IMG/VR virus record: IMGVR_UViG_3300035681_000001
Location: 124,001-188,000 of that record
Source: a virus
DNA: 64,000 bases
Strand: one strand, 5' to 3'
Shown: piece by piece, positions 5,043 to 60,342 of the stretch
Position numbering within the stretch: position 1 is the first letter of the stretch
How the letters are laid out: each line of letters starts with the position of its first letter
Program-made: the position numbers and the translations under genes
The notes under the pieces: generated by a model
What the model saw: only the letters and a program-made list of their open reading frames with translations
Told to the model about the DNA's origin: nothing
Database searches by the model: none

Positions 5043-5067
5043 AGCCCCCTTAACCGGGGGCTTTTTT
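5043..5067 (+). terminator. Rho-independent terminator
   Basis: AGCCCCC/GGGGGCT stem with a TTAACC loop and six T. Confidence 0.92.
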
Positions 5068-5680: not shown

Positions 5681-5762
5681 ATACAAATTAGATCACACCT
5701 ACTAGTAGGGCCGGCAGCTGTGTTAAGGGACTATGAAATGAGTTACCTAGACAGTCCAGCTA

Positions 5763-5887: not shown

Positions 5888-8800
5888 ATGCCCCAAGTGG
5901 TATTCAAGTTCTACCACCACGAGGTTAATCCAGAAGCCACCAAAGTGGCAATTCTGGCGCCAGGCCATGCTGCTGGTCCGGTGAACGCTAATGTGCCAGT
6001 TAACTTTGATACCGGCCACCTGGACAAGGCATGGGATACCATGAACCTACAAGGGGTCAACCGCCGTATTGACTGGCAAGGTACTCGCCTGGGTGCTGGA
6101 TCTGCTCAGTTCCGCGAAACTGACGGTAGTTTTAGTCCGGTAGTGTGGTCCTCGACACCCCGCACACGTAACTTGCGTGCGCCGGTGCAACTACTGTTGG
6201 CAACTTTAGTGGGAGGTCAACCTGATTGGGTAACGGGTGCGGTACCTTCTGGAAACGATGCTGCTATTCGGCAGCACGTAGCGGCAGCTATAGCTGCAGG
6301 TAAGTCACATGACTACTCGCAACACGGCTTCAGTTTGGAAGCCTACGTGTCTTTGAGTGAGATCCTAGCTCAACCTGGAGCTATACACCCTGTAACTGGA
6401 GCACCTACCGGGCGGCATTGGTTTGGTGTAATAGGTCAAGTTTACTCCATGGATACTTGTACCACTGGCGGTGCAGTACAAACGCGCTACAACTGTAGTG
6501 CATTTGATTTGTATTACTTGCCAGAGCCTGAATTCGGGCACAGTTCTTTAACACCACTCGACCCTTACGGTAAGTTAAATTTGTACGAGTCTTTGACTTA
6601 CGTACCCGAAGCCAAGGTGCTGCCCACTACTACGGTGGTGCTGCCTGCCGTACCTACGGCAGTACCTACTGCCGTACCTACTGCCGTAGGTAGTACCACA
6701 GTGTCAACTGCTGACACGCGTCGGTACTGGAATAGCTTTGGTATTCACGGTCTGCAGGTGCAGGAAATAACAGTAGATTCAGTAGTCCACGACTTTGATC
6801 TGATCAATAATTTTGAGGGCTGGAGTGAAATCCAATCTTTATTCCGTCTAGACGGCAGCGCGGCAGCTGCTGCAGTAACCGTTGCTGATGCAGCGCGGTA
6901 TTGGGTGTCCAAGAAGATGTATGGGAGTTACCAAAAAATAGGCGACCTAGCAGCCTACGAATGGACTGTTGCAGACTTGAAAGACTTGATCGAAATCATT
7001 GTAAAAGTGGGTACCAGCCGTGGCCTTGACGCTGACCACTTACCCTGTTGGTCTGGTGAGATGCTGCAGTTTGGGGCCGGCGGTCCTGCCTTTAAGGTGC
7101 TAGATAAGCGTATATATGACTACCGTGGGCGGTTGTTGCAAAACGTAGTAGAGCTAAAGGTTAGCTCCCACGTAAACGAATCAGGTCGGATGGAGTATAC
7201 CCTAGATGGTCTCCAGCAGGTCTCCAGTGCTACCCAGCTGCTTAAGTTGGTGTATTTCGGCTACTTGCCGCTATTAGCTCAGTCCATTACACAAGTAATG
7301 GACGCACTACCTGCAAACTTTAGTGAGTTTTGTAGGAATGCCTGGGTAGGAGCTAACCTAGTTAGTTGGTCGAAAGACCAAGTACTAGAACAAAACTCCG
7401 CCGCACGGCTGCGGATGGATAACTGCTATCCGATGACTATACGTCAGCCATATAGCCCGTTGAGCGGATCCTATTGGGTTCGCCTTAACGAAGACGGCCG
7501 CTTTGCGGCTAACTTAGTTAGCCACTACGAGAAACAAATCCGGTACTCCTCCAAAGAGTGTTCGGATTTGTTTAAAGAAGCCATTCGAGTAGCTTACCGT
7601 GAAGGTGGTCTAGACTACCGCTTTGACAAAAAGCTGTTAGTTGGTGGTGGCTTAGGTGCTGTAAACTGCCGGCTGTTGGCAGCTAATGACCCTGCAGCTT
7701 TTGCTGCTTTGCAGGCTAAGTTTGGGGTTACTGAGAGCTCAGTGCTATCTGGCACCCTGAAACTAGCTAAGGGTCTAAAGCGGCTGTTTTTGTCAATGGC
7801 ACAATCAGTGCCTGTCAAAGGTGCACTCCCAGCTGGGTTCTTGTTTAGAGGCCAAGAGTCTCCTGTGGAAGGGTTTTTGGCAGCAGTAGCATTAGCACCT
7901 ACTGTGGTGTTTACACCCGGTATGTCTGCCAGCGTAGGTGCTAAACCTGTAGCTGAAGTACGTAAGACCGTTAGGAATTACGTATTGCACTCTTTTGGCA
8001 CTGAACCTGAGTTCTTGATGGGCTTAGGGTGTGCTATCAAGCCTAACAACGTAGTTACTGAAACTACGCTGGGGATCACCCGTTATACGCTGGTAAGACC
8101 CACACCCATCAAGCCTAATGATTTACTGATACAAGTCGCTAACCCTAGTGGCTCAGTAAATGATGTAGTAAACACCTCTACATTTGAGGGTGATCTACAG
8201 TGGCTGGAATGGCAAGTCGTTCCTAGTATGCTGCCAGGGCAGACAGAGCTTAAACTCAGTTGGGAATTCCTAACTTACGAGAGCGATATGAAAGCTCGCT
8301 CGATTGCTAAAGCGCTGCTGGTAGACGTTAATCCAGACGTAATATTCGCTCATAATAAAGACCTAGGTGATGTAGACATCATCCACTTCCAAGACTCTTT
8401 GAAGGTGGATTTGTGGTGGTCTTACCTGATGTGTGCTGGGACTACCTTACGTTACAACTGGGATAAGCCTGAAGTAGCAGAACTCCGCCGGTTGGCGGTA
8501 GCCATTAACTCTAGGTTTGGGTTTGCAGCCTTTCAAGGCATACTAATAGACCCCGTGCATATAGCACTAGGTCACTACGACGCGTTCCAAGCTGAGTTCC
8601 GTAGGCTTTTCAGTCGGCCATTGTGGTTTAAGTTCGCTCAACTAGCCGAGTTCGGGCGTTTGTTATATGACATGCACCAGTCAGACCAATACGAACGGGT
8701 GGACTTGGGTGACGGTTACGAAAGTTACGTCACTAAAGGTGCTGACCCTAACGCACCAGACACCAACATCACCTCTTTTGTGGTGGAGTCCGGTACCGTC

Positions 8801-11800
8801 ACCGAAATCTGGCAGCGCGGGATGTGTCTAGTAGGCACTGAAACCTGCCCGGTTTATAACGTGGAACTCTTCGAGTCTACTACACCTAAAGAAAACGTAG
8901 GTGAGTCCTGGCAGTTCCCTTCAGAGCTGCGTGCACTGCAGTCCATCACCAGCAATGGTGTAAACCCTAAAGCGTTGGATGAGCTCACCAACACGATAAA
9001 AGCAGACATCCTGCCTAATTTGGCTATGGCTAAAATCCTGGAAGGGATGGCTAGCGGTAGTCTACTCGGAGGTAAGCGCACCATAGCAGTAGAAGCTGCA
9101 GCCGACGGGCACTACCAAGTATCTACTGCAGTGCACGCCCGGTTGCAGCAAATAGTAGCAGAACTAGGTGTAAACCTAGCCGCACCCGCAGAAGCTTTTG
9201 AAAAGCTGTCTGTAAGACTAAAAGACGTAGTCTTTACCTTTAAGGTGTCTGGCAAAGAGACCAGCATTTGGCTTCCTGCATTGTGGGAACTCAATAAGCT
9301 GCGTTCTACCAACGAGTCTGGGCAAACTTTGTCCAGTGTGTTCTACCGTTATTTCTTAGTGCCGCTGTGTCTCAACAACCACGTTGAAGCTGCAGTAGTA
9401 ATAAGACTTCGCGGTCAGCTTAGTTCGTTGTTGTACTCTAGCGAAACACCTAAGCTGCTGAAAGGCCGCACTAAAATAGGTGGTCGCCGTGTAGGTTTAC
9501 CTTGTATCCCCATAAGTGAAACTTGGGTGTTGTATTCAGATGACCCGAGTTCTGAGTACCAAAACGCACTGCAGTATTGCCGGCGTGCATCGTTAAACCT
9601 AGAAATAGGCCTTAACGACCACTTGGTCGGTTACAACTCACGTGCACCACTAGCAGCTGGCTGGTTGTCTAAACTGCGTGTGATTACACCTGCAGAAAAC
9701 ACCAGTAACTATTGGCAACTGAGCCCTTACTATTTGGGTATCAGTCCAGTAGCGCTGTACATAGACGGTGGTGATTGTGACGGTGACTCAGGCTATTGGG
9801 CTGAACAAGGACCTGAGTTTGAGAGTGAAATCCTGGACTACCAAACCGTTATAAATATCCGCAATGCGGGTATGGATGGCGACTGTCGGTATACAGGTAG
9901 TTACGCTTACGCGCACTACACGCGTAAGGATTGGGCTAAAGCTACCGTAACTATGTCTTCGGGAGTTATCAGTGGGTGTGTAATGACAGAAGAGCAGTAT
10001 TGCTCTTATAACGTCGGTGCACACATCGTACAACACGAAGCTGTCGGGTCCAGCTATAAGCTGTACATGCTAGGTGAACACTTGATTGACTGTGCTCAAG
10101 CTTATGAAAAACTAGGCATTGAGTGTGAGTTGTTGAAGCCCTTTATGGGTGCTCTAGCACCTAGTTTGGTGCTGATACTGGCAGAAATCTACGAGACTAT
10201 TCTCGGCGGTTTTACTCCAGAAGCACTGGAGTTGTTTGAAAGCTACCTCAAACCGGCTATCAAACAAGGTAAGCCTATCGCACTTAAGCAGCTTACTGAT
10301 TTTCGTAAGTTGCTGGAGCGCTTTGGAGCTAACTCTTTAAGAGCTGAGGAAATCCTAAAGTTGATCAATGTGATCTCTTTAGTAGCTGCCAGTGAAGTCA
10401 ACGGGTATCTGTCCCGTGAATACACTGGTTGGGATGGCCTAGCTTTAAGTGCAGCTCATGTTGTATTCGAGCTGGGTCGCGGTCGCTTTCACGGTATGTC
10501 AGCCTTTACTAAAGGTCAAATGCCTCAAACGCGTCAAGCGTTAGGGCAAAAAGCCGCACTAGTTAAGTTCTACGAACTGCTGCTAGGTGGACTGCAGACT
10601 AACCGTGAGTTGTACCACCGCTTATCGGAGACTTCTTCAGTAATAGGTTGCGGTAGGGTGCTGTTCAAGCACCTGCACGTAGAACTCGGGTTGATTAGTT
10701 CTAATTATCCCTGGTTGCGTCCAAACCTAACAGAACTGCAATGGCTTCCAGAAGTCTTTGAGCAGTTTAAGTGCTGTCAGCTTGCACCAGCTACTACCGA
10801 ACTTACTGAGACTACAACCGAAATTACAGTTGAAGCTACTACTGTAGCTACACCTGAACCTACTACTGCTACTACTACTAAACCTATTACAGTTCAAGTT
10901 ACACCGGAACCTACGTCAGCCGCACTACTTGAAACACTAAAGAAAAGTGTTTTATTTGAGCTTTGTGCTGAGCGTGGTCTTACAGTAGCCAAAAAAGCTA
11001 CCAAAGAGCAGTTGGTAAGCGCTTTACTAACTGACCCTAACGGACCACCCTCAGAGGCTTTAGTTATTGAGGTTTCACAAGACCCGGCAACTAAAGCTCT
11101 GAAGCAACGTATTGCTGAACTAGAAGCTCAAGTTGCCCAACTGGAGGCTCAAGTTACGCAAGACCCAGAAGATCCTGAAGAGCCACTCGCTGTAGTGTCT
11201 AAACCTAAACCGGACCCCAAACCTGATTCAGGTGCTGGGACAAGCGAACCCACCACACCCATTGCACCCGCTACCATGTCCGCTACATCAACGGCAGTCA
11301 ACGTACCTGCAGGTATGCCGGCTGACCTAACACCTTCTCAGATTAGAGCGTTTGAGTTGTTTCAACAAGGCCACAATTTGGTCATCACTGGAGCAGCAGG
11401 TACAGGTAAAACCTACCTTAGTAACTTGCTTAGGGAATACGCCCTTAAGAAAAACTACAAACTAGTAGTAGTAGGTTCCACAGGCACTTCGGTACTAAAT
11501 ATCAAAGGTGACGGCACCCTTAACTCCGTATTTGGGTTGGGTCTAGGTTTTAGTGGTAAACGCCCTTCGGGGCTAGAGGCCGACAGTTTACTAGCTGCTT
11601 CCAGAAGATCCCAGATTTGTAACGAGTACTTAGCGCTTACTGATGAAGCTGGTTTGATAATACTGGTAGACGAAGTAAGCATGGTAGATACTAAACTAGC
11701 TCGCCTAACGTGGGATATCACAGCACTACAAAACCACCCTACTCAGTGGGTGTTGATAGGCGATCCAGGACAGTGTACTCCTCCAGGAGGAGAGCTGTTC

Positions 11801-12679
11801 TTTAAGGATTCTACGTTGGACTATGAAGACTACACTGAACCGTATGAGTCTTTGCTAAAAATCGGTGATTTTAAATGCGTAGCCTTAAAAGAAGTCGTAC
11901 GTCAAGCTAACGATCCTGCTTTTTTAGCAGATCTAAACGACTTGCGAGTAGGTAAGACCCCAGGTTTAGTACTAAGAGAGCGCTTTGTGGCGTCTATTAA
12001 AGGATTACCGGAGCAAGCTATACACGCTTATTACAACAACGCAGACGTTGCTTTACACAACCGTAAGGGTACTGAACAACTTATTGCTGCCGGTGCTGAG
12101 TCTAGGGTATACCATGCCACGGTAAGAAAAATAAGTTCTGGGGCTCCTGATTGGCCCGCACAATTCAGCCCTATTGAGCCTCAAATGACACTGGCTATTG
12201 GTATGCCAGTAATGGTACGTAAGAACCTAAAAGCAGCAGATAGAACTTTACTAGCGTCTAACGGCACCACTGGTGTGGTAATAAAACTAAATCCAGATTC
12301 AGTGGTGCTAAAACTGAAAAACGGTAAAACTATCACTATCTCCCAACAAGAACTAGACGGCCCTAAAGACGGTAAAGGTCGTGATCTAGGTAAATACAAA
12401 CAACTGCCCTTGCACCCAGCGTTTGCCATTACCGGGCATAAGCTGCAAGGTCTAACCCTAGACGAACCTTTGGTGGTACACCTCTACCAAAGCGGCAGGT
12501 ACGGTCAAAGAGCAATCAATACTGCAGGCTGGTTGTACGTAGTATGCTCCAGAGTTACAGAAGCTCGACATTTATACTTTGCAGTAGGAGATGCTGATCC
12601 AACCGTAGTGTTTAATTGGTTCCTGAGTGGCAACCGAGTTGATCAGTCAGCGCTGGAATGGCTTCAGAGCCTGGAATAA
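5888..12679 (+). CDS. QDE-1/YonO-like RNA polymerase fused to Pif1/RecD-type helicase
   Basis: 2263 residues from the ATG at 5888. I prefer this start because it follows an A-rich leader like that of the gene at 17071; in-frame starts at 5738 and 5720 would add a low-complexity extension. At residues 1296-1300 is DCDGD within GGDCDGDSGYW, close to the metal-binding signature GGDLDGDxY of QDE-1/RDR polymerases and to DFDGD of RNA polymerase beta'. An upstream RxP...R element (SRAPLAAGWLSKLR) also fits. A Thr/Pro linker, a SAP/Rho-N-like helix pair and a short coiled coil lead to a helicase: Walker A GAAGTGKT (1835-1842), DEVSMVD (1928 on), GDPGQCTPPGG, TGHKLQG and a final VVCSRV box. The family call rests on motifs only. 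Confidence 0.8.
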   Translation: MPQVVFKFYHHEVNPEATKVAILAPGHAAGPVNANVPVNFDTGHLDKAWDTMNLQGVNRRIDWQGTRLGAGSAQFRETDGSFSPVVWSSTPRTRNLRAPVQLLLATLVGGQPDWVTGAVPSGNDAAIRQHVAAAIAAGKSHDYSQHGFSLEAYVSLSEILAQPGAIHPVTGAPTGRHWFGVIGQVYSMDTCTTGGAVQTRYNCSAFDLYYLPEPEFGHSSLTPLDPYGKLNLYESLTYVPEAKVLPTTTVVLPAVPTAVPTAVPTAVGSTTVSTADTRRYWNSFGIHGLQVQEITVDSVVHDFDLINNFEGWSEIQSLFRLDGSAAAAAVTVADAARYWVSKKMYGSYQKIGDLAAYEWTVADLKDLIEIIVKVGTSRGLDADHLPCWSGEMLQFGAGGPAFKVLDKRIYDYRGRLLQNVVELKVSSHVNESGRMEYTLDGLQQVSSATQLLKLVYFGYLPLLAQSITQVMDALPANFSEFCRNAWVGANLVSWSKDQVLEQNSAARLRMDNCYPMTIRQPYSPLSGSYWVRLNEDGRFAANLVSHYEKQIRYSSKECSDLFKEAIRVAYREGGLDYRFDKKLLVGGGLGAVNCRLLAANDPAAFAALQAKFGVTESSVLSGTLKLAKGLKRLFLSMAQSVPVKGALPAGFLFRGQESPVEGFLAAVALAPTVVFTPGMSASVGAKPVAEVRKTVRNYVLHSFGTEPEFLMGLGCAIKPNNVVTETTLGITRYTLVRPTPIKPNDLLIQVANPSGSVNDVVNTSTFEGDLQWLEWQVVPSMLPGQTELKLSWEFLTYESDMKARSIAKALLVDVNPDVIFAHNKDLGDVDIIHFQDSLKVDLWWSYLMCAGTTLRYNWDKPEVAELRRLAVAINSRFGFAAFQGILIDPVHIALGHYDAFQAEFRRLFSRPLWFKFAQLAEFGRLLYDMHQSDQYERVDLGDGYESYVTKGADPNAPDTNITSFVVESGTVTEIWQRGMCLVGTETCPVYNVELFESTTPKENVGESWQFPSELRALQSITSNGVNPKALDELTNTIKADILPNLAMAKILEGMASGSLLGGKRTIAVEAAADGHYQVSTAVHARLQQIVAELGVNLAAPAEAFEKLSVRLKDVVFTFKVSGKETSIWLPALWELNKLRSTNESGQTLSSVFYRYFLVPLCLNNHVEAAVVIRLRGQLSSLLYSSETPKLLKGRTKIGGRRVGLPCIPISETWVLYSDDPSSEYQNALQYCRRASLNLEIGLNDHLVGYNSRAPLAAGWLSKLRVITPAENTSNYWQLSPYYLGISPVALYIDGGDCDGDSGYWAEQGPEFESEILDYQTVINIRNAGMDGDCRYTGSYAYAHYTRKDWAKATVTMSSGVISGCVMTEEQYCSYNVGAHIVQHEAVGSSYKLYMLGEHLIDCAQAYEKLGIECELLKPFMGALAPSLVLILAEIYETILGGFTPEALELFESYLKPAIKQGKPIALKQLTDFRKLLERFGANSLRAEEILKLINVISLVAASEVNGYLSREYTGWDGLALSAAHVVFELGRGRFHGMSAFTKGQMPQTRQALGQKAALVKFYELLLGGLQTNRELYHRLSETSSVIGCGRVLFKHLHVELGLISSNYPWLRPNLTELQWLPEVFEQFKCCQLAPATTELTETTTEITVEATTVATPEPTTATTTKPITVQVTPEPTSAALLETLKKSVLFELCAERGLTVAKKATKEQLVSALLTDPNGPPSEALVIEVSQDPATKALKQRIAELEAQVAQLEAQVTQDPEDPEEPLAVVSKPKPDPKPDSGAGTSEPTTPIAPATMSATSTAVNVPAGMPADLTPSQIRAFELFQQGHNLVITGAAGTGKTYLSNLLREYALKKNYKLVVVGSTGTSVLNIKGDGTLNSVFGLGLGFSGKRPSGLEADSLLAASRRSQICNEYLALTDEAGLIILVDEVSMVDTKLARLTWDITALQNHPTQWVLIGDPGQCTPPGGELFFKDSTLDYEDYTEPYESLLKIGDFKCVALKEVVRQANDPAFLADLNDLRVGKTPGLVLRERFVASIKGLPEQAIHAYYNNADVALHNRKGTEQLIAAGAESRVYHATVRKISSGAPDWPAQFSPIEPQMTLAIGMPVMVRKNLKAADRTLLASNGTTGVVIKLNPDSVVLKLKNGKTITISQQELDGPKDGKGRDLGKYKQLPLHPAFAITGHKLQGLTLDEPLVVHLYQSGRYGQRAINTAGWLYVVCSRVTEARHLYFAVGDADPTVVFNWFLSGNRVDQSALEWLQSLE

Positions 12680-18050: not shown

Positions 18051-18077
18051 AGCCCCCTTAACCGGGGGCTTTTTTTA
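18051..18077 (+). terminator. Rho-independent terminator
   Basis: AGCCCCC/GGGGGCT with loop TTAACC and eight T, 26 bases after the stop of the SSB-like gene. Confidence 0.93.
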
Positions 18078-27231: not shown

Positions 27232-28005
27232 ATGACTGACACTCCCACCGAATTTGATGAAATCCTACCAGCAGAAGCTGTATCAATCAAACTACTAAAA
27301 ATCCCAGCAGGTAGCTTTTTAATGGGCTCTCCACCAGAGTCAAACTCAGATTATGAAAAACCTCAACACCTAGTAACTCTAGAGTCTTTCTGGCTTTCTC
27401 AAATACCTATTACTCAAGCCCAATGGTCTATAGTAGCAAACTGGCCGACCGTAAACGTACCCCTCAAACCAAACCCTTCTTATTTCAAGGGACCAAATAA
27501 GCCTCTAGAGCAAGTAAGTTGGGAGGATGCGATCGAATTTTGTAATCGCCTGTGCCAGCGCACTGGCCGCTATTATAGTTTACCTAGCGAGGCACAATGG
27601 GAATATGCTTGCCGAGCTGGCACCACCACTCCTTTCCACTTTGGCGAAACGATCAGCTCTGAGTTGGCAAATTACAATGGAAATTACACCTATGGTAAGG
27701 GTCAAAAAGGGGTTTATCGCAAACAAACCACCAACGCCGGCAGCTTCCCCGCCAATGCCTGGGGGTTGCACGACATGCATGGCAACGTGTGGGAGTGGTG
27801 CGCTGATCACTGGCATGACAACTATAACGGAGCACCAGCAGATGGTAGCCCGTGGACTAACGACACTAATTATGTAGGAACTAGGCTGCTGCGCGGCGGC
27901 TCGTGGAGCAGCAACCCCGGGATCTGCCGCTCGGCTTACCGCAGCAGCTCCCCCCCGGGCTTCCAGCTCGGCAATGTGGGGTTCCGCGTCTGTTGCCTCC
28001 CCTAA
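27232..28005 (+). CDS. FGE-sulfatase-fold protein, DGR variable protein 1
   Basis: 257 residues of the formylglycine-generating-enzyme (C-type-lectin-like) fold: IPAGSFLMGS near residue 25, PITQAQW, PSEAQWEYACRAG, HDMHGNVWEWC, and a terminal LRGGSW...CRSAYR...VGFRVCCLP. In cyanobacteria this fold is a frequent target of diversity-generating retroelements, whose variable region lies at the C-terminus as here. The last 117 bases are far richer in G+C than the rest and match the second copy at 56283 except at defined codons. Display or ligand binding is more likely than sulfatase activation. No SD; leader of TAATCCCAC repeats. Confidence 0.9.
   Translation: MTDTPTEFDEILPAEAVSIKLLKIPAGSFLMGSPPESNSDYEKPQHLVTLESFWLSQIPITQAQWSIVANWPTVNVPLKPNPSYFKGPNKPLEQVSWEDAIEFCNRLCQRTGRYYSLPSEAQWEYACRAGTTTPFHFGETISSELANYNGNYTYGKGQKGVYRKQTTNAGSFPANAWGLHDMHGNVWEWCADHWHDNYNGAPADGSPWTNDTNYVGTRLLRGGSWSSNPGICRSAYRSSSPPGFQLGNVGFRVCCLP
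27889..28005 (+). other. DGR variable region 1
   Basis: Constant blocks CTGCGCGGCGGCTC, TGCCGCTCGGC and TACCGC are shared with 56283-56397. Between them, codons AGC AGC AAC, ATC, AGC AGC TCC and TTC CAG CTC GGC AAT stand where copy 2 has CAC AAC CAC, GGC, AAC CTT CAC and GAC GTC TAC TTC AAC. This fits adenine-directed mutation of AAC codons in a template repeat, which is not in the window. Confidence 0.85.
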
Positions 28006-29046: not shown

Positions 29047-30261
29047 ATGCAATTTTTCACCACCAATGGCGTTCCGGTCAAAGCTTGGACTGATGGAGTA
29101 CCAGTCGAAGACAAAGCTATGCAACAGCTAAATGCTCTCGCTTCGATGCCTTTTGTTTACAAACATATTGCCGCAATGCCTGATGTTCACTGGGGACTTG
29201 GTGCAACAATAGGCTCCGTAATCGCTACCAAAGGGGCTGTAATTCCTGCCGCCGTTGGCGTTGATATTGGCTGCGGCATGTCTGCTCAGCGGACTACATT
29301 AACCGCTAGCGATTTGCCTGACGACTTAGGGACGCTCAGGTCTGCCATCGAGGCTGTAATTCCTCATGGTCGCACAGATAACGGCGGCCCAAATGATCGG
29401 GGCGCTTGGGGGAACGCTACCCGTACAGCTGAAGCTGCAATGCAAATACTGCAGCCGGGACTTGATGGCATTACTTCCAAGCATCAGGCAATTAGCAAGG
29501 CAGCTCAACGTGCAGTCTTGCACGCTGGTACGCTCGGAGGCGGCAACCACTTTGTTGAGATTTGCCTTGACGAAGATCAAAGAGTTTGGATTATGTTGCA
29601 CAGCGGGAGTCGTGGTGTTGGCAACAGGATTGGCACCTACTTTATCGAGAAAGCTCGTAAAGAGATGGAGCGATACTTCATCAACCTCCCCGACAAAGAC
29701 CTTGCATATTTAGTAGACGGTAGTGAGCTGTTTGGCGACTATGTTCAAGCAGTCGGCTGGGCGCAAGATTACGCCATGGCCAATAGGTCGTTAATGATGG
29801 ACGCAGCTTTACACGTATTAAAACAAGCTGTGCCGAAACCATTTGCTTGTGACTGCAGTGCAGTTAACTGTCATCACAACTATGTATCCAGGGAGCGTCA
29901 TTTTGGCTCTGACGTACTACTTACTCGCAAGGGAGCCGTATCTGCCAAAGAGGGTGAGCTGGGGATTATTCCTGGCAGTATGGGAGCAAAATCATTTATC
30001 GTGAAAGGCAAGGGCAATCGCGAATCATTTTGCTCCTGCTCTCATGGAGCTGGTCGTAAGATGGGCCGAAATGAAGCCAAGAAGCGTTTTACGATTGAGG
30101 ATCACATTGCTGCCACTGCCGGCATTGAATGTAGAAAGGATCTCAATGTAATCGACGAAACACCGGCAGCATATAAAGATATTGATGCCGTTATGGCGGC
30201 ACAGGCTGATCTGGTTTCGGTGGTTCACACGCTTAAACAGGTTGTTTGTATTAAAGGGTAA
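29047..30261 (+). CDS. rtcB: RtcB-type RNA ligase
   Basis: 404 residues, as in short bacterial RtcB proteins. Metal site GVDIGCGM (residues 71-78), GGGNHFVE (164-171), HSGSRGVGN (185-193), VNCHHNYV, GSMGAKSFIVKG and the CSHGAGRKMGR block with the guanylylated His are all present. RtcB joins 2',3'-cyclic phosphate and 5'-OH RNA ends using GTP and Mn. On a mobile element it can repair tRNAs cut by host anticodon nucleases; no archease partner is seen nearby. Codon use is more G/C-ending than in the flanking small genes, which suggests a separate origin. Confidence 0.95.
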   Translation: MQFFTTNGVPVKAWTDGVPVEDKAMQQLNALASMPFVYKHIAAMPDVHWGLGATIGSVIATKGAVIPAAVGVDIGCGMSAQRTTLTASDLPDDLGTLRSAIEAVIPHGRTDNGGPNDRGAWGNATRTAEAAMQILQPGLDGITSKHQAISKAAQRAVLHAGTLGGGNHFVEICLDEDQRVWIMLHSGSRGVGNRIGTYFIEKARKEMERYFINLPDKDLAYLVDGSELFGDYVQAVGWAQDYAMANRSLMMDAALHVLKQAVPKPFACDCSAVNCHHNYVSRERHFGSDVLLTRKGAVSAKEGELGIIPGSMGAKSFIVKGKGNRESFCSCSHGAGRKMGRNEAKKRFTIEDHIAATAGIECRKDLNVIDETPAAYKDIDAVMAAQADLVSVVHTLKQVVCIKG

Positions 30262-52723: not shown

Positions 52724-52912
52724 ATGTCAACTACAACACTCACCGCACCTGAATTAGGAGACACCCAAGTAATCAAAACAGGTGACTGCTATGTCGCTGA
52801 AACTTACGCTTGTGTAAAAGGCAAAAACCAATGGATCGCACTTTGTGATCCTATGCGCAGTCTTACTGAGGCTTTTAATAAAATCACTCTCACAGGAAGG
52901 TACCTCCCTTAA
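52724..52912 (+). CDS. Small hypothetical protein
   Basis: 62 residues; beta-rich (TQVIKTGDCYVAETYAC). Its last base is the first of the next start (TAATG). Unknown. Confidence 0.5.
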   Translation: MSTTTLTAPELGDTQVIKTGDCYVAETYACVKGKNQWIALCDPMRSLTEAFNKITLTGRYLP

Positions 52913-53808
52913 TGTTAAATTTAGTAGACTGCAAAGTAGGTGACTTTGTTACCTATGCAAATGGACACGTCGGTCGGATTATTGGTAGTAACTACTTAGC
53001 TGAGACAATAACAACAAATGTGTATGTTGATGGTTCAGGGCATCATAATAGGAAACATACTCTAGAAGGCAGACATTCAAATCCAGAATGGTGCATAATT
53101 CATGTAAAACCTGAAGCTCCTGTAGACCTTCATAAAGCTCAACCAGGCGACACAGTTATCTATAGCGACGGGGCTGCAGGTATTATTACTGAGATTCAAG
53201 TTACAGAAGATTTTAAGTTTAAGTGTAAGTGCTTGTTAAGTGGATTTCATACATACCACCGACATAATGGTGCGAGTAAGACTTACTCCCACAAATACCG
53301 AGTAATTGCAGTAGAGCCTGCAATAGACCTTAGTAAAGCCCAACCGGGTAACACGGTAATCTATGCAAATGGTAGCCCTGGAGTATTTAAAGGCAATGTT
53401 GACAACTTACTGCATTATAGTAGTTACTCAATAGAACACGGCGTTTTAGCACACACAAAGTCTGGTAAGCATACTCTTAAGGATACACATCCACTAGACA
53501 TAAAAACCGTAATTAGCTGTACTCACCCTAAACCAACTGAACCAATGCAACTCCCTACTGAAGGCATTACCGCTACACGACCTACTATTAAAGATGCTGA
53601 CTCCCGAGAGAATGTCCAAGTACTAACTGGCGAAGGCTGGGGTATTAAAAGATGGGACCTAACTGGAAAACTACCGTGGGCACACACACCTAATTACCGC
53701 CCACTTACTAAAAAGGACTTAGCCTTACAGCTATCAAACAACTTAGAAAAAGACGCCGCACCTTCAAGTCACCTACTAAAACTCATCCTTAACTACCTAA
53801 ACGAATGA
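52912..53808 (+). CDS. Triplicated barrel-repeat protein
   Basis: 298 residues with three repeats of about 70 residues, each opening with a KxGDxVxYANGxxG-type element: VGDFVTYANGHVGRI, PGDTVIYSDGAAGII and PGNTVIYANGSPGVF. A C-terminal domain (VQVLTGEGWGIKRWDL, PWAHTPNY, LLKLILNYLNE) matches the protein ending at 52681. The repeats look like KOW/SH3-type barrels; function unknown. Confidence 0.65.
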   Translation: MLNLVDCKVGDFVTYANGHVGRIIGSNYLAETITTNVYVDGSGHHNRKHTLEGRHSNPEWCIIHVKPEAPVDLHKAQPGDTVIYSDGAAGIITEIQVTEDFKFKCKCLLSGFHTYHRHNGASKTYSHKYRVIAVEPAIDLSKAQPGNTVIYANGSPGVFKGNVDNLLHYSSYSIEHGVLAHTKSGKHTLKDTHPLDIKTVISCTHPKPTEPMQLPTEGITATRPTIKDADSRENVQVLTGEGWGIKRWDLTGKLPWAHTPNYRPLTKKDLALQLSNNLEKDAAPSSHLLKLILNYLNE

Positions 53809-54410
53809 AACACTCACGTGTAGTAGCTCTTACTTTGAGCTGCTCTTTTGTAGCTGTTAGTCTGGCAGGTTGTGGACCTGATACCCCCAGCAAAAACTAC
53901 AAATCAGTTTATGAATCAGTAAAAGAATGTGTAGCAGACTCACGTAGTCAGTCTGACTGTAAAGACTACTACAACTCAGCTCTAAATAGCCACCTAGAAA
54001 ATGCCCCTAGGTACGTGTCACAAAAAGACTGCCTAGCAGAAGGGTCTAATAAGTGCGTGGAAATAGGGTTAGCTCCAGACTCAGTTTGGTTGCCTGAGAT
54101 GGTAGGATTTACTGCTCAATACAACCCTGCATATCTTAGTAAAACCAACACTAGCAACCCCAACGATCGAGTAGTAGTTGAACCGTCTAACGACGGTGAC
54201 AACACATTCATTATGTTGGGGTCTTATTACAACTCTGGATCTGCTACTAGATTATCTGAAGGAATGACAGCGGGTAACTTACGTGGAACGTCAAGTAGAG
54301 TATTTAACTCAGGTGTTACTCCTGGTAGTTACACTTCAACTACAAGTCGTAGCAGTGTAGCCTCAGTGAGCCGAGGTGGCTTTGGCTCTAGGGGAGGTGC
54401 AGGGTCTTGA
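53805..54410 (+). CDS. DUF1190 (YgiB/YjfM-like) lipoprotein
   Basis: 201 residues. Signal peptide with lipobox LAGC (Cys about residue 23), then VKECVADSRSQSDCKDYYNSA, ENAPRYVSQKDCLAEG with paired Cys, and a Ser/Gly-rich tail (SRGGFGSRGGAGS). This is the DUF1190 pattern. In bacteria DUF1190 genes lie next to glutathionylspermidine-synthase-like genes (ygiB-ygiC), and so here, with a 4-base overlap. Function of the pair is uncertain; peptide-type ligation at the envelope has been suggested. Confidence 0.85.
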   Translation: MKHSRVVALTLSCSFVAVSLAGCGPDTPSKNYKSVYESVKECVADSRSQSDCKDYYNSALNSHLENAPRYVSQKDCLAEGSNKCVEIGLAPDSVWLPEMVGFTAQYNPAYLSKTNTSNPNDRVVVEPSNDGDNTFIMLGSYYNSGSATRLSEGMTAGNLRGTSSRVFNSGVTPGSYTSTTSRSSVASVSRGGFGSRGGAGS

Positions 54411-55648
54411 AAAGACACGTTGTACAACCCCGACCAAACTGGGTTTCAGAAACAGAAGCTCTAGGATGGGGATTCTTTGCTACTTCATCAGGAGAAAACG
54501 GAGATCCTTATTGGCACGAAAAAGTAGCCTATGAGTTTACAGCTGAAGAAATCGACGTTTTAGAGGAAGCCACCAACGAACTTCAAGAGCGTTGTTTAGA
54601 AGCAGTAGCTTACGTAGTTACTAAACCTAAGCTGCTTAGCAAATTAGGTATTCCCTCCAGCCACCACGAACACGTGCGGCGGTCTTGGGAGCGTGCTGAC
54701 CCTAGTCTTTACGGTCGCATGGACTTTGCCTATTTAGGCGGTAACTCACAGCCTAAATTATTAGAATACAACGCTGACACACCTACTGTAGTACTAGAAA
54801 CTGCAGTATTACAGTGGCAGTGGCTATAAGCCGTAAGGCCGGGAGCTGATCAGTTTAACTCTCTACACGAAGCTTTACTGGAAAACTTCCAGGCCCTAAA
54901 AGCTAGGATCCCCGCTGGAGAAACTTTCTACTTTGCTGGTGTAGAAGAATGTGAAGAAGAGTACTGGACTTGTGTGTACCTGCAAGACCTAGCTTCCCAA
55001 GCTGGCCTAAAAACTAAGTTTATTAACTTGCCAGACATAGGCCTACAACACGGTGCTAAAGAGTCATCCAAGTTTATAGACTTAGAGGGTAACGAAATTC
55101 GGTACTGGTTTAAGTTGTATCCTTGGGAGTGGTTAGTAGAAGAAGAATTCGGATCGGCTACACGCTACGCATCCGGCATGGTAGAACCAGCATGGAAAAT
55201 GGTGCTGTCCAATAAAGGACTGCTACCCGTGTTGTGGGATTTATTCCCCAACCACCCTAACTTACTACCAGCGAGCTTTGATCACCCAGTAGGTGACCTA
55301 GACGGATGGGCTTACTTACAATGGGAACGTAACGCCTCAGCTGCAGATCTAGAAAGCTATGCCGCAGGTCAGTTGTACCCTTTTGACTACATTACCAAAC
55401 CAATGTTGTCTAGAGAAGGAGCTAACATTGACTACTATGAAAAAGGTAAGTTAGTACACCGCACGGGTGGTAACTACTTAGGGCCTAGAATCTACCAAGA
55501 ATTTGCACCTACCTTCACTTCAGGTGAGTACAAAGCCATCATTGGTAGCTGGGTAGCTCGCCGGGCTTGTGGAACTATGGTCCGCGACGTTAAAGGTTTA
55601 ATTGTTCAAGATACTACCGCAGTAGTTCCTCACTGGTTTAACCCTTAA
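54407..55648 (+). pseudogene. Glutathionylspermidine synthase-like (YgiC-type), in-frame TAA
   Basis: One frame of 414 codons broken by TAA at 54827-54829. Before it: FAYLGGNSQPKLLEYNADTP and LQWQWL. After it: AVRPGADQFNSLHEAL, YFAGVEECEEEYWTC, KLYPWEWL, EPAWKMVLSNKGLLPVLW, and a final VVPHWF. Intact relatives read (E)D-V-P-GADQFN at this point, so TAA replaces a Glu or similar codon. The ATP-grasp-type synthase fold is otherwise complete in length. It is broken, read through, or a sequence error. Confidence 0.85.
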
Positions 55649-55664
55649 TTATTGTTCAATTGCC

Positions 55665-56552
55665 ATGAATTCTCGACACGAAAAGCTCAGCGACTCGATT
55701 GCAATAACTATGCAATCTATTCCTGCTGGATCTTTTTTAATGGGATCTCCAGAAGACGAACTTAACCGTTCAAATACCGAGAGTCCTCAACACGTAGTAA
55801 GCCTGGAAGCTTTTGAACTAAGTACTGCTACTATTACTCAAGCTCAATGGGCAGAAGTAGCTAAGTGGCCCGCCGTAAATCAAGCCCTAAAGACTGATCC
55901 TTCTAAATTTAAAGGATCAAATAAACCAGTACAAAACATAAACTGGTATGAAGCAATGGAATTTTGCACCCGGCTTAGTGCTAAAACAGGTAAAGACTAT
56001 ACTTTACCTAGCGAGGCACAATGGGAATACGCCTGTCGAGCAGGCACTAGTACTCCTTACAATTTTGGATTGACAGGTTCTGACCAAATAACCCGGACAG
56101 ACGCTAACTTTGACAGCCAACAACCCGTTAACGTAGGTAGTTTTTGTGCTAATACCTGGAAACTCTATGACATGCACGGAAATGTATGGGAGTGGTGTTT
56201 AGATGATTGGCACGATAGTTATGAAAACGCTCCAACAGATGGCAGTGCTTGGGGTGGTCAAACTATCAATAGCCGTAAGGTGCTGCGCGGCGGCTCCTGG
56301 CACAACCACCCCGGGGGCTGCCGCTCGGCCTACCGCAACCTTCACCGGCCCGGCGACGTCTACTTCAACGTCGGTTTGCGTGTGGTCTGCCTCCCTAAAA
56401 ACCTAAAAACCCAAAACACCAACCACCAACTGACTGAGCTAGCTCTAATGATGGTAGGTACTATTGAAAAGTCTAAGCTGTTTATTCCAGAAATCACAGA
56501 CACCATTCGTAAGGCCCTTACTAATCAAATGAAAAACTCAAACTACAACTAG
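55665..56552 (+). CDS. FGE-sulfatase-fold protein, DGR variable protein 2
   Basis: 295 residues. The same fold as the gene at 27232: IPAGSFLMGSPEDE, TITQAQW, LPSEAQWEYACRAG, YDMHGNVWEWC, LRGGSW...CRSAYR...VGLRVVCLP. The variable region at residues about 207-243 is G+C-rich and NNY-coded. Unlike copy 1 it carries about 50 more residues after the variable region (ELALMMVGTIEKSKLF...), a helical tail perhaps for oligomer or anchor. It stands just after the DUF1190/YgiC-like pair. No SD. Confidence 0.9.
   Translation: MNSRHEKLSDSIAITMQSIPAGSFLMGSPEDELNRSNTESPQHVVSLEAFELSTATITQAQWAEVAKWPAVNQALKTDPSKFKGSNKPVQNINWYEAMEFCTRLSAKTGKDYTLPSEAQWEYACRAGTSTPYNFGLTGSDQITRTDANFDSQQPVNVGSFCANTWKLYDMHGNVWEWCLDDWHDSYENAPTDGSAWGGQTINSRKVLRGGSWHNHPGGCRSAYRNLHRPGDVYFNVGLRVVCLPKNLKTQNTNHQLTELALMMVGTIEKSKLFIPEITDTIRKALTNQMKNSNYN
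56283..56397 (+). other. DGR variable region 2
   Basis: Aligned codon by codon with 27889-28005. The constant scaffold (LRGGSW, CRSAYR, PG, VG-RV-CLP) is kept while CAC AAC CAC, GGC, AAC CTT CAC and GAC GTC TAC TTC AAC vary. All but one variable codon end in C. The following CTCCCTAA would lie near the homing end. Confidence 0.85.
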
Positions 56553-59379: not shown

Positions 59380-60342
59380 ATGACATTTAAGCCAGGAACT
59401 TCAGAAGATCGTGCTCTAGGAGCTTTTATTGGTCTAGCTGTAGGAGATGCTTTAGGTGCTGCAGTTGAGTTTTGCACAAAAGGTAAGTACGAACCTCTAA
59501 CCGACTACCGAGATGGTGGGCCATTTAACTTGATTGGAGGACAGTGGACTGATGACACCTCACAAGCTATTTGCATAGCTGAATGGCTGTTAGGGGACTT
59601 TTTATCCGTAGGTAACCTAAGAGACCGTTTTTGTGAATGGCTGTACACAGGTAAAAATTCTTCTACAGGGGTCGCCTTTGACATCGGTAATGGTACCCGT
59701 CAAGTATTAGAACAACACCGTGTTAGGCAAGTAAACCATAGAACCTTAGAAAACTCTGGAGGTAACAACGCAATTATGCGTTTAGCTCCAGTGGCTCTTC
59801 GGTATTACAACAATTTTCGTGAGGCTTTGATTTATGCACGTCAAAGTGGTGAAGCAACCCACAGTCATAATTCTTCAGTAGACTCCGTAAGCCTACTGAT
59901 TGCGATACTGATAACAGCTATTCGTGCAGAAGTAGACTTACCTAAGGTCATAGCAGGCTTAGCTGTAGCAGGTTTACTGCCAGAAGATTCTGAGCTTCGG
60001 CTCCAGTTCATGAAACTCGTCCACCAAGGAAGTCTAGCTCCAGACATCATCAACGTTGATGGGTACTCAATCACTACGTTGTTGGCTGCTACACAATCTT
60101 TCCTGAGAACTCACACTTTTGAAGAATGCGTTTTAGACGCTGTCAATAAAGGTGGTGATACTGACTCTGTAGGTGCTGTAGCAGGTCAAATAGCCGGTGC
60201 TTACTATGGGTACTCTCAAATACCTGAACGGTTCTTGACTAAACTGTGGGATCACAATCGACTAGTTGGCCTCGGTATCCAGCTAATAAATGAACGTAAA
60301 TGTTGGACTAAGGCTGATTTCTTGGAGTTTTTCCTGCAATGA
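59380..60342 (+). CDS. ADP-ribosylglycohydrolase (DraG/ARH family)
   Basis: 320 residues, family-typical. GAFIGLAVGDALGAAVEF, QWTDDTSQA (metal-binding TDDT), GGNNAIMRLAP, THSHNSSVDS and NKGGDTDSVGAVAGQIAGAYYG, the second metal site GDTDS, are all in order. The enzyme removes ADP-ribose from proteins or nucleic acids using two Mg ions. In the element it may reverse host ADP-ribosylation used in regulation or defence, alongside the macro-domain protein at 39117. The Asn in GGNNAIM is an unusual variant of the family's GNGSIM. Confidence 0.93.
   Translation: MTFKPGTSEDRALGAFIGLAVGDALGAAVEFCTKGKYEPLTDYRDGGPFNLIGGQWTDDTSQAICIAEWLLGDFLSVGNLRDRFCEWLYTGKNSSTGVAFDIGNGTRQVLEQHRVRQVNHRTLENSGGNNAIMRLAPVALRYYNNFREALIYARQSGEATHSHNSSVDSVSLLIAILITAIRAEVDLPKVIAGLAVAGLLPEDSELRLQFMKLVHQGSLAPDIINVDGYSITTLLAATQSFLRTHTFEECVLDAVNKGGDTDSVGAVAGQIAGAYYGYSQIPERFLTKLWDHNRLVGLGIQLINERKCWTKADFLEFFLQ

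Follow-up and report, generated by a model that had tools for sequence, protein, structure and literature searches.

The question raised by this locus is whether an RNA polymerase and a helicase are held in one phage protein, and what such a protein would do. The window analysed here is a stretch of 64,000 nucleotides, part of a 189,763-base IMG/VR virus record (G000). The giant gene in it is a single uninterrupted reading frame (2263 aa from the ATG at 5888), and an alternative upstream GTG at 5720 would lengthen the protein by 56 aa. In an earlier note, made from the letters alone, a QDE-1/YonO-like signature, GGDCDGDSGYW, had been placed at about 9767-9799 of this frame, together with a full helicase set (GAAGTGKT, DEVSMVD, GDPGQCTPPGG and TGHKLQG). 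The position of the signature was exact in an open frame, and the helicase motifs were all located as described, the last two at residues 1958-1968 and 2182-2188, respectively. The features are collected in Table 1. By library searches with the single giant protein, the helicase part only was recognised. No match to the N-terminal residues 1-589 was obtained by the Pfam scan at E≤10, and the alignment with the closest relative (G012) by blastp ran from residue ~446 onward. The SAP/Rho-N-like linker proposed in the same note was not recovered: there was no SAP/Rho_N match, and Pfam on the linker alone returned weak coiled-coil models only.

Table 1. Positions in the window of the giant gene, its protein regions and its motifs
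Feature	Position	Strand	Basis
Giant gene, putative RNA polymerase-helicase	5888..12679	+	open frame; same architecture in related phages
N-terminal region, residues 1-589, without recognised domain	5888..7654	+	Pfam, blastp
Putative RNA polymerase core, residues 590-1640	7655..10807	+	nine-sequence alignment; profile search matches
Putative DPBB-B (lysine barrel), residues 760-980	8165..8827	+	motif level only
K802-A-R804-SIA-K808	8291..8311	+	K, R, K invariant in nine-sequence alignment
QDSLKVD (D836, K839, D841)	8390..8410	+	invariant in nine-sequence alignment
DPBB-A (aspartate barrel), residues 1180-1345	9425..9922	+	AlphaFold, Foldseek, YonO-family profile match
NSRAPLAAG (R1252-x-P1254)	9635..9661	+	R, P invariant in twelve sequences
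GGDCDGDSGYW, residues 1294-1304, putative metal-binding triad D1296/D1298/D1300	9767..9799	+	invariant in alignments
Low-complexity T/P/E-rich linker with coiled coil at ~residues 1736-1765	10838..11257	+	Pfam scan
SF1B Pif1/RecD/Dda-like helicase, residues 1810-2231	11315..12580	+	Pfam, PHROG, PDB matches
Walker A GAAGTGKT, residues 1835-1842	11390..11413	+	motif position
Walker B VDEVSMVD, residues 1927-1934	11666..11689	+	motif position

The capsid protein, tail sheath and terminase of the window phage were nearest to those of Ma-LMM01-kind Microcystis phages and Microcoleus phage My-WqHQDG (~28-36% identity). By these comparisons the phage is placed as a distant relative of Ma-LMM01 and, because its nearest matches come from Microcystis/Microcoleus phages, its host is likely a cyanobacterium. 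A family A DNA polymerase, UvsX, a DnaB-like helicase, a portal protein and a ribonucleotide reductase are encoded, together with a primase (G000 52851-54068) that is an orthologue of the Ma-LMM01/My-WqHQDG primase. The family A DNA polymerase (L018:9028-11315, + strand) is found as two ORFs, one for the exonuclease part and one for the polymerase part, separated by a gap, and is split in Ma-LMM01 too. The terminase ORF (L016:12390-16133, - strand, 1248 aa) possibly contains an intein, its residues ~110-660 matching other phages' helicases annotated as intein-containing. Two kinases of PHROG 18508 (27232-28005 and 55665-56552) match the early-gene product gp062 of Ma-LMM01 at 52% and 43% identity, respectively, and an RtcB RNA ligase (29047-30261), a glutathionylspermidine-synthase-like protein (54974-55648) and an ADP-ribosylglycohydrolase (59380-60342) are also present.

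When IMG/VR was scanned with one protein at a time, neither the polymerase part nor the helicase gave a relative, and the matches to two D.DGD DNA patterns look like chance. Relatives were gathered via the terminase, and the polymerase part then matched seven related records (best E 1e-90). By the polymerase profile nine records were matched clearly and two more weakly, the weak matches falling on the triad in the v-type protein (the second giant described below) of these two. Homologues of core residues 590-1640 are present in nine related phage records; a scan of bacterial genomes gave no relative. The nine-sequence alignment used below consists of the window protein and eight relatives at 20-29% identity to it.

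The C-terminal module is an SF1B helicase of the Pif1/RecD/Dda type, and its motif set is complete, as in T4 Dda, Pif1 and RecD2. It was matched by Pfam AAA_30 (3.4e-11) and PIF1 (1e-8), both over the cut-off, by PHROG 325 'Dda-like helicase' (9e-46) and by solved Pif1-type helicase structures (1.3e-14). To our knowledge, none of the known Dda/Pif1/RecD2 helicases is joined to an RNA polymerase. In six phages (the window phage, G012, G037, G016, G015 and G003) the helicase is fused C-terminally in proteins of 2263-4243 aa, in G014 it lies N-terminal of the polymerase in the same chain, and in G018 and G017 it is the next ORF after the polymerase. Ma-LMM01 (gp160) and My-WqHQDG (WOL31354) encode it by a gene of its own, and no helicase was found within the 16 kb taken around the polymerase of G038. 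The helicase is thus fused or adjacent to the polymerase in 9/12 phages; in the other 3/12 it is unlinked or was not found close by. When the free Pif1 gp160 of Ma-LMM01 was compared with the window phage genome, the fused helicase was the only match. A functional link between polymerase and helicase is suggested because fusion, reversed order and adjacency all occur, and from the recurrent fusion we infer that RNA synthesis may be coupled to strand unwinding.

Record G017 (L119:3944-8476, - strand) has its polymerase in two ORFs followed by the helicase ORF. The 1117-aa ORF has the N-terminal part, and the shorter one carries SRAP...DCDGD with its own ggaggac ribosome site; in cells, beta and beta' are likewise separate chains. 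The accessory modules of these proteins vary. A kinase-type AAA_33 and an HExxH motif are present in G003; NADAR plus macro (G014; L121), NADAR (My WOL31509; L049:42-10274) and DUF4326 (G037; L150) are either inserted into the polymerase or fused with it; an AlkB-type 2OG-Fe(II) oxygenase precedes the polymerase core within one chain in G012 (L115:2055-13823, + strand) and G037 (L150). The NADAR, macro and DUF4326 modules may serve in counter-defence against NAD/ADP-ribose-based immunity.

Such a chain could also be read as an analogue of a primase-helicase, in which the two-barrel enzyme would supply RNA primers while the helicase opens the fork, in the manner of T7 gp4; primase-helicase fusions are frequent in phages. 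The helicase is nearest to Dda, which is a replication accessory helicase of T4 (PMC3016281). However, the genome already holds the primase orthologue described above and a DnaB-like replicative helicase, so priming does not depend on the giant protein, and the polymerase is retained without a helicase in Ma-LMM01 gp064 and My WOL31509; a priming role is therefore considered unlikely.

The relation of the other part to known polymerases was estimated by profile comparison, for which two established families, P23-45 gp64 and YonO, served as the yardstick (they match each other at P 0.027 only) and terminase and helicase as the negative controls (P 0.24-0.8). Against the YonO family, the profile of residues 1180-1420 scored P 1.9e-4, and both R-x-P and DxDGD fell in register; none of 150 column shuffles reached this score, and the reversed profile was also not near it. 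The DPBB-A profile matched the v type at P 4e-5 and the LMM01 gp064 family at P 8e-4, and the nine-sequence profile matched Ma-LMM01 gp064 at P 2.6e-5 along the whole core; by hhalign with the single window sequence this last comparison was uninformative and became significant only once relatives were added. The match to P23-45 gp64 was marginal (P 0.013-0.07, reached by 2/150 shuffles) and that of the DPBB-B region to YonO was not significant (P 0.62). The Pfam RdRP family PF05183 (QDE-1/RDR) matched relative G018 at its DPBB-A domain with E 0.0016, below the cut-off, and did not match the window protein; among 14 control genomes B. subtilis alone was matched, probably through YonO of the SPbeta prophage. 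The kinship with QDE-1 and YonO claimed earlier is in line with these YonO and PF05183 matches.

YonO of Bacillus phage SPbeta is likewise single-chain and has its upstream R...K and K in the same order; unlike the giant protein it has ~840 aa and no helicase, the core of the giant protein being longer with extra insertions, and the likeness is visible to profiles only. In P23-45 gp64, GADYDGDIGYV stands in register with GGDCDGDSGYW; this protein has 616 aa and is without a helicase. QDE-1 and the eukaryotic RdRPs share the GGDxDGD, RxP, Q/K-x-R...K and K motifs; unlike the giant protein, they are RNA-templated and cellular and are without a helicase. The profile matches to YonO and, in one relative, to the RdRP family of QDE-1 would also suit RNA-dependent synthesis of the kind that QDE-1 is capable of, in which the helicase would separate RNA or RNA-DNA duplexes. 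However, within this clade DNA serves as the template for the P23-45 enzymes (PMC10770324) and for YonO, an experimentally proven RNA polymerase that requires the Asp triad (PMC5467207), and the fused helicase is of the DNA-helicase type; RNA as the template is thus held to be very unlikely.

The first barrel of QDE-1 has invariant Q736, K743 and K767, and its second barrel has the aspartates D1007/D1009/D1011 (PMC1750930); the invariant residues of the YonO family are R266, K271, K316, R492, P494, D535, D537 and D539. The nine-sequence alignment has 22 invariant columns in all, including K802, R804, K808, D836, K839, D841, R1252, P1254, G1295, D1296, D1298, G1299 and D1300. The DxDGD triad and the R-x-P motif, ~40 residues upstream of it in the same barrel, are invariant in both this and a 12-sequence alignment. 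The order of the motifs is identical in the giant protein, QDE-1 and the YonO family, and the pattern would be expected of a two-barrel active site. K802.R804...K808 is likely the equivalent of motif 2 of QDE-1 (Q736...K743) and of YonO R266...K271, and K839 likely that of QDE-1 K767 and YonO K316, on the best alignment, itself not significant. R1252-x-P1254 would be the counterpart of NRAP in beta' and of RxP in QDE-1/YonO. The conserved lysines predicted for the second barrel were found as invariant motifs, the support for a fold there being at the motif level only.

A polymerase part that is degenerate or a structural scaffold, with only the helicase and the accessory modules at work, might be considered, as these proteins are very large, diverge fast and carry many accessory modules; it is held to be highly improbable, since the few columns that stay invariant at an otherwise ~20-30% identity to the window protein include the Asp triad, R-x-P and the K/R motif.

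From composition, D.DGD is expected 0.36 times and GD.DGD 0.025 times in the long ORFs of this genome, so that D.DGD alone could arise by chance. The GGDCDGD region goes beyond chance because G-D-x-D-G-D, R-x-P and the K/R motif are invariant in nine sequences and a fold match is added to them. AlphaFold gave a poor model of the whole core (1051 aa, pLDDT 51.5, pTM 0.35), with which no match was obtained by Foldseek, and DPBB-B is therefore supported by motifs only. Residues 1150-1345 were modelled with modest confidence (pTM 0.51, core pLDDT mostly 70-80), and the alternating strands and helices were consistent with a DPBB. With this DPBB-A model, each of the best 50 PDB matches listed by Foldseek was the catalytic largest subunit of an RNA polymerase (best E 2.2e-4, probability 1.00); they came from bacteria, archaea, eukaryotes, plastids, poxviruses, ASFV and phage AR9. 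RNA polymerases also led the named matches from the viral library, where a protein of Microcystis phage MaMV-DC, itself uncharacterised, stood at rank 37. The two-barrel fold proposed in the earlier note is thus borne out, at modest model confidence, for the triad domain, which resembles the catalytic subunits, and is putative for the second barrel, which was poorly modelled. A chance D.DGD within some other fold, to which the expectation of 0.36 per genome and an HMMER (hmmsearch) search of the PDB that found nothing with the polymerase profile would be favourable, is scarcely credible beside listed fold matches to RNA polymerases only, shuffle-controlled profile matches and motif invariance.

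The giant protein is probably a member of the two-barrel (DPBB) RNA polymerase superfamily, a single-chain phage enzyme with an SF1B helicase and with QDE-1, YonO and the P23-45 RNA polymerases as its kin, and it is most likely the non-virion RNA polymerase of a Ma-LMM01-type phage. It would be made after infection and would transcribe phage genes, its active site being formed by both barrels, with the Asp triad on DPBB-A and Lys/Arg on DPBB-B. Helicases of the SF1B group travel along single-stranded DNA in the 5'-to-3' direction. If this polarity of the family applies, the helicase would travel along the non-template strand in the direction of transcription, the same way as the polymerase. 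Tethered in this manner, it may help to open DNA at promoters or further downstream, dissolve R-loops or clear roadblocks, with no need of host sigma factors. It speaks against this reading that a k-mer search found no phage-specific promoter motif and turned up, upstream of genes, repeats resembling intrinsic terminators instead. Near-identical hairpins of this kind (GCCCCCGGAAACGGGGGCTTTTTT) are located at 15-38, 615-638, 1850-1873, 2295-2318, 2472-2495, 5044-5067 and 18052-18075; over the 5 kb that lead up to the giant gene, most of them stand immediately ahead of a short gene, and a shared GTGGG...CCCAC leader follows several.

By a D.DGD scan of ORFs of at least 150 aa, exactly two proteins were found in the record of the window phage and two in Ma-LMM01. 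The second giant of the window phage (v type; G000:C1 108854-118486, L014:4854-14486, + strand) has 3211 aa and QLGDYDGDTF, and is encoded near the portal gene, outside the window; its homologues are Ma-LMM01 gp080 (3562 aa; L023:7700-18388, - strand) and My WOL31285. The n type comprises the window protein, Ma-LMM01 gp064 (L022:43811-48832, - strand, NEGDADGDQC) and My WOL31509 on the second My record; My WOL31396, considered first for the My phage, was rejected for having no D.D.D. By profile searches the v type is present in 12/18 related records, and in 8 of these 12 the n type accompanies it. As is proposed here for the window phage, Thermus phage P23-45 has two single-chain two-barrel RNA polymerases, one of which belongs to a giant protein: gp64 is its non-virion enzyme, and gp96 is the virion one, joined to the tail tape measure. 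In P23-45, pre-early transcripts are made by the virion enzyme and early transcripts by the non-virion one (PMC10770324). The place of the v type near the portal gene fits a virion role by this scheme, and by analogy the v-type giant is a probable virion-packaged RNA polymerase, which would transcribe the earliest genes.

Both Ma-LMM01 proteins are annotated as hypothetical; gp064, which matches the core profile and directly adjoins the published early-gene block gp054-gp063, and gp080 are candidates for unrecognised RNA polymerases of a cultured Microcystis phage. For the lineage of Ma-LMM01-like cyanophages, transcription by two previously unrecognised polymerases, a giant virion one encoded near the portal and a non-virion one, is proposed tentatively, at a little under an even chance. 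In most large members the non-virion enzyme would then be one molecule with a helicase and exchangeable NADAR, macro, AlkB-like oxygenase, kinase and peptidase modules, able to transcribe by itself and independent of sigma factor and host RNA polymerase.

In the published descriptions, MaMV-DH01 is said to be without an RNA polymerase of its own (PMC9927357), and, counting against a phage enzyme, in Ma-LMM01 three classes of gene expression without known regulators were reported, sigma70-like sequences preceding all of them, from which host sigma70 was concluded to serve throughout (PMC5780444). No report of RNA polymerases in Ma-LMM01-type phages and none of an RNA polymerase-helicase fusion was found in the open literature, seen mainly as titles and abstracts; prior mention elsewhere is possible. 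As far as found in the open literature, polymerase and helicase are each known, and the joined machine and its lineage are apparently new.

Two-barrel polymerases carry out transcription in all cells, and simple single-chain ones bear on the origin of this kind of enzyme. Combined in a single chain, and retained or joined anew on several occasions in evolution, a polymerase with its own unwinding motor would offer a minimal model of transcription assisted by a helicase (cf. TFIIH/Pol II). The candidate RNA polymerases also bear on the published puzzle of the Ma-LMM01 expression classes with their sigma70-like promoters (PMC5780444), and since two of them, gp064 and gp080, are named in culturable phages, the question is directly testable.
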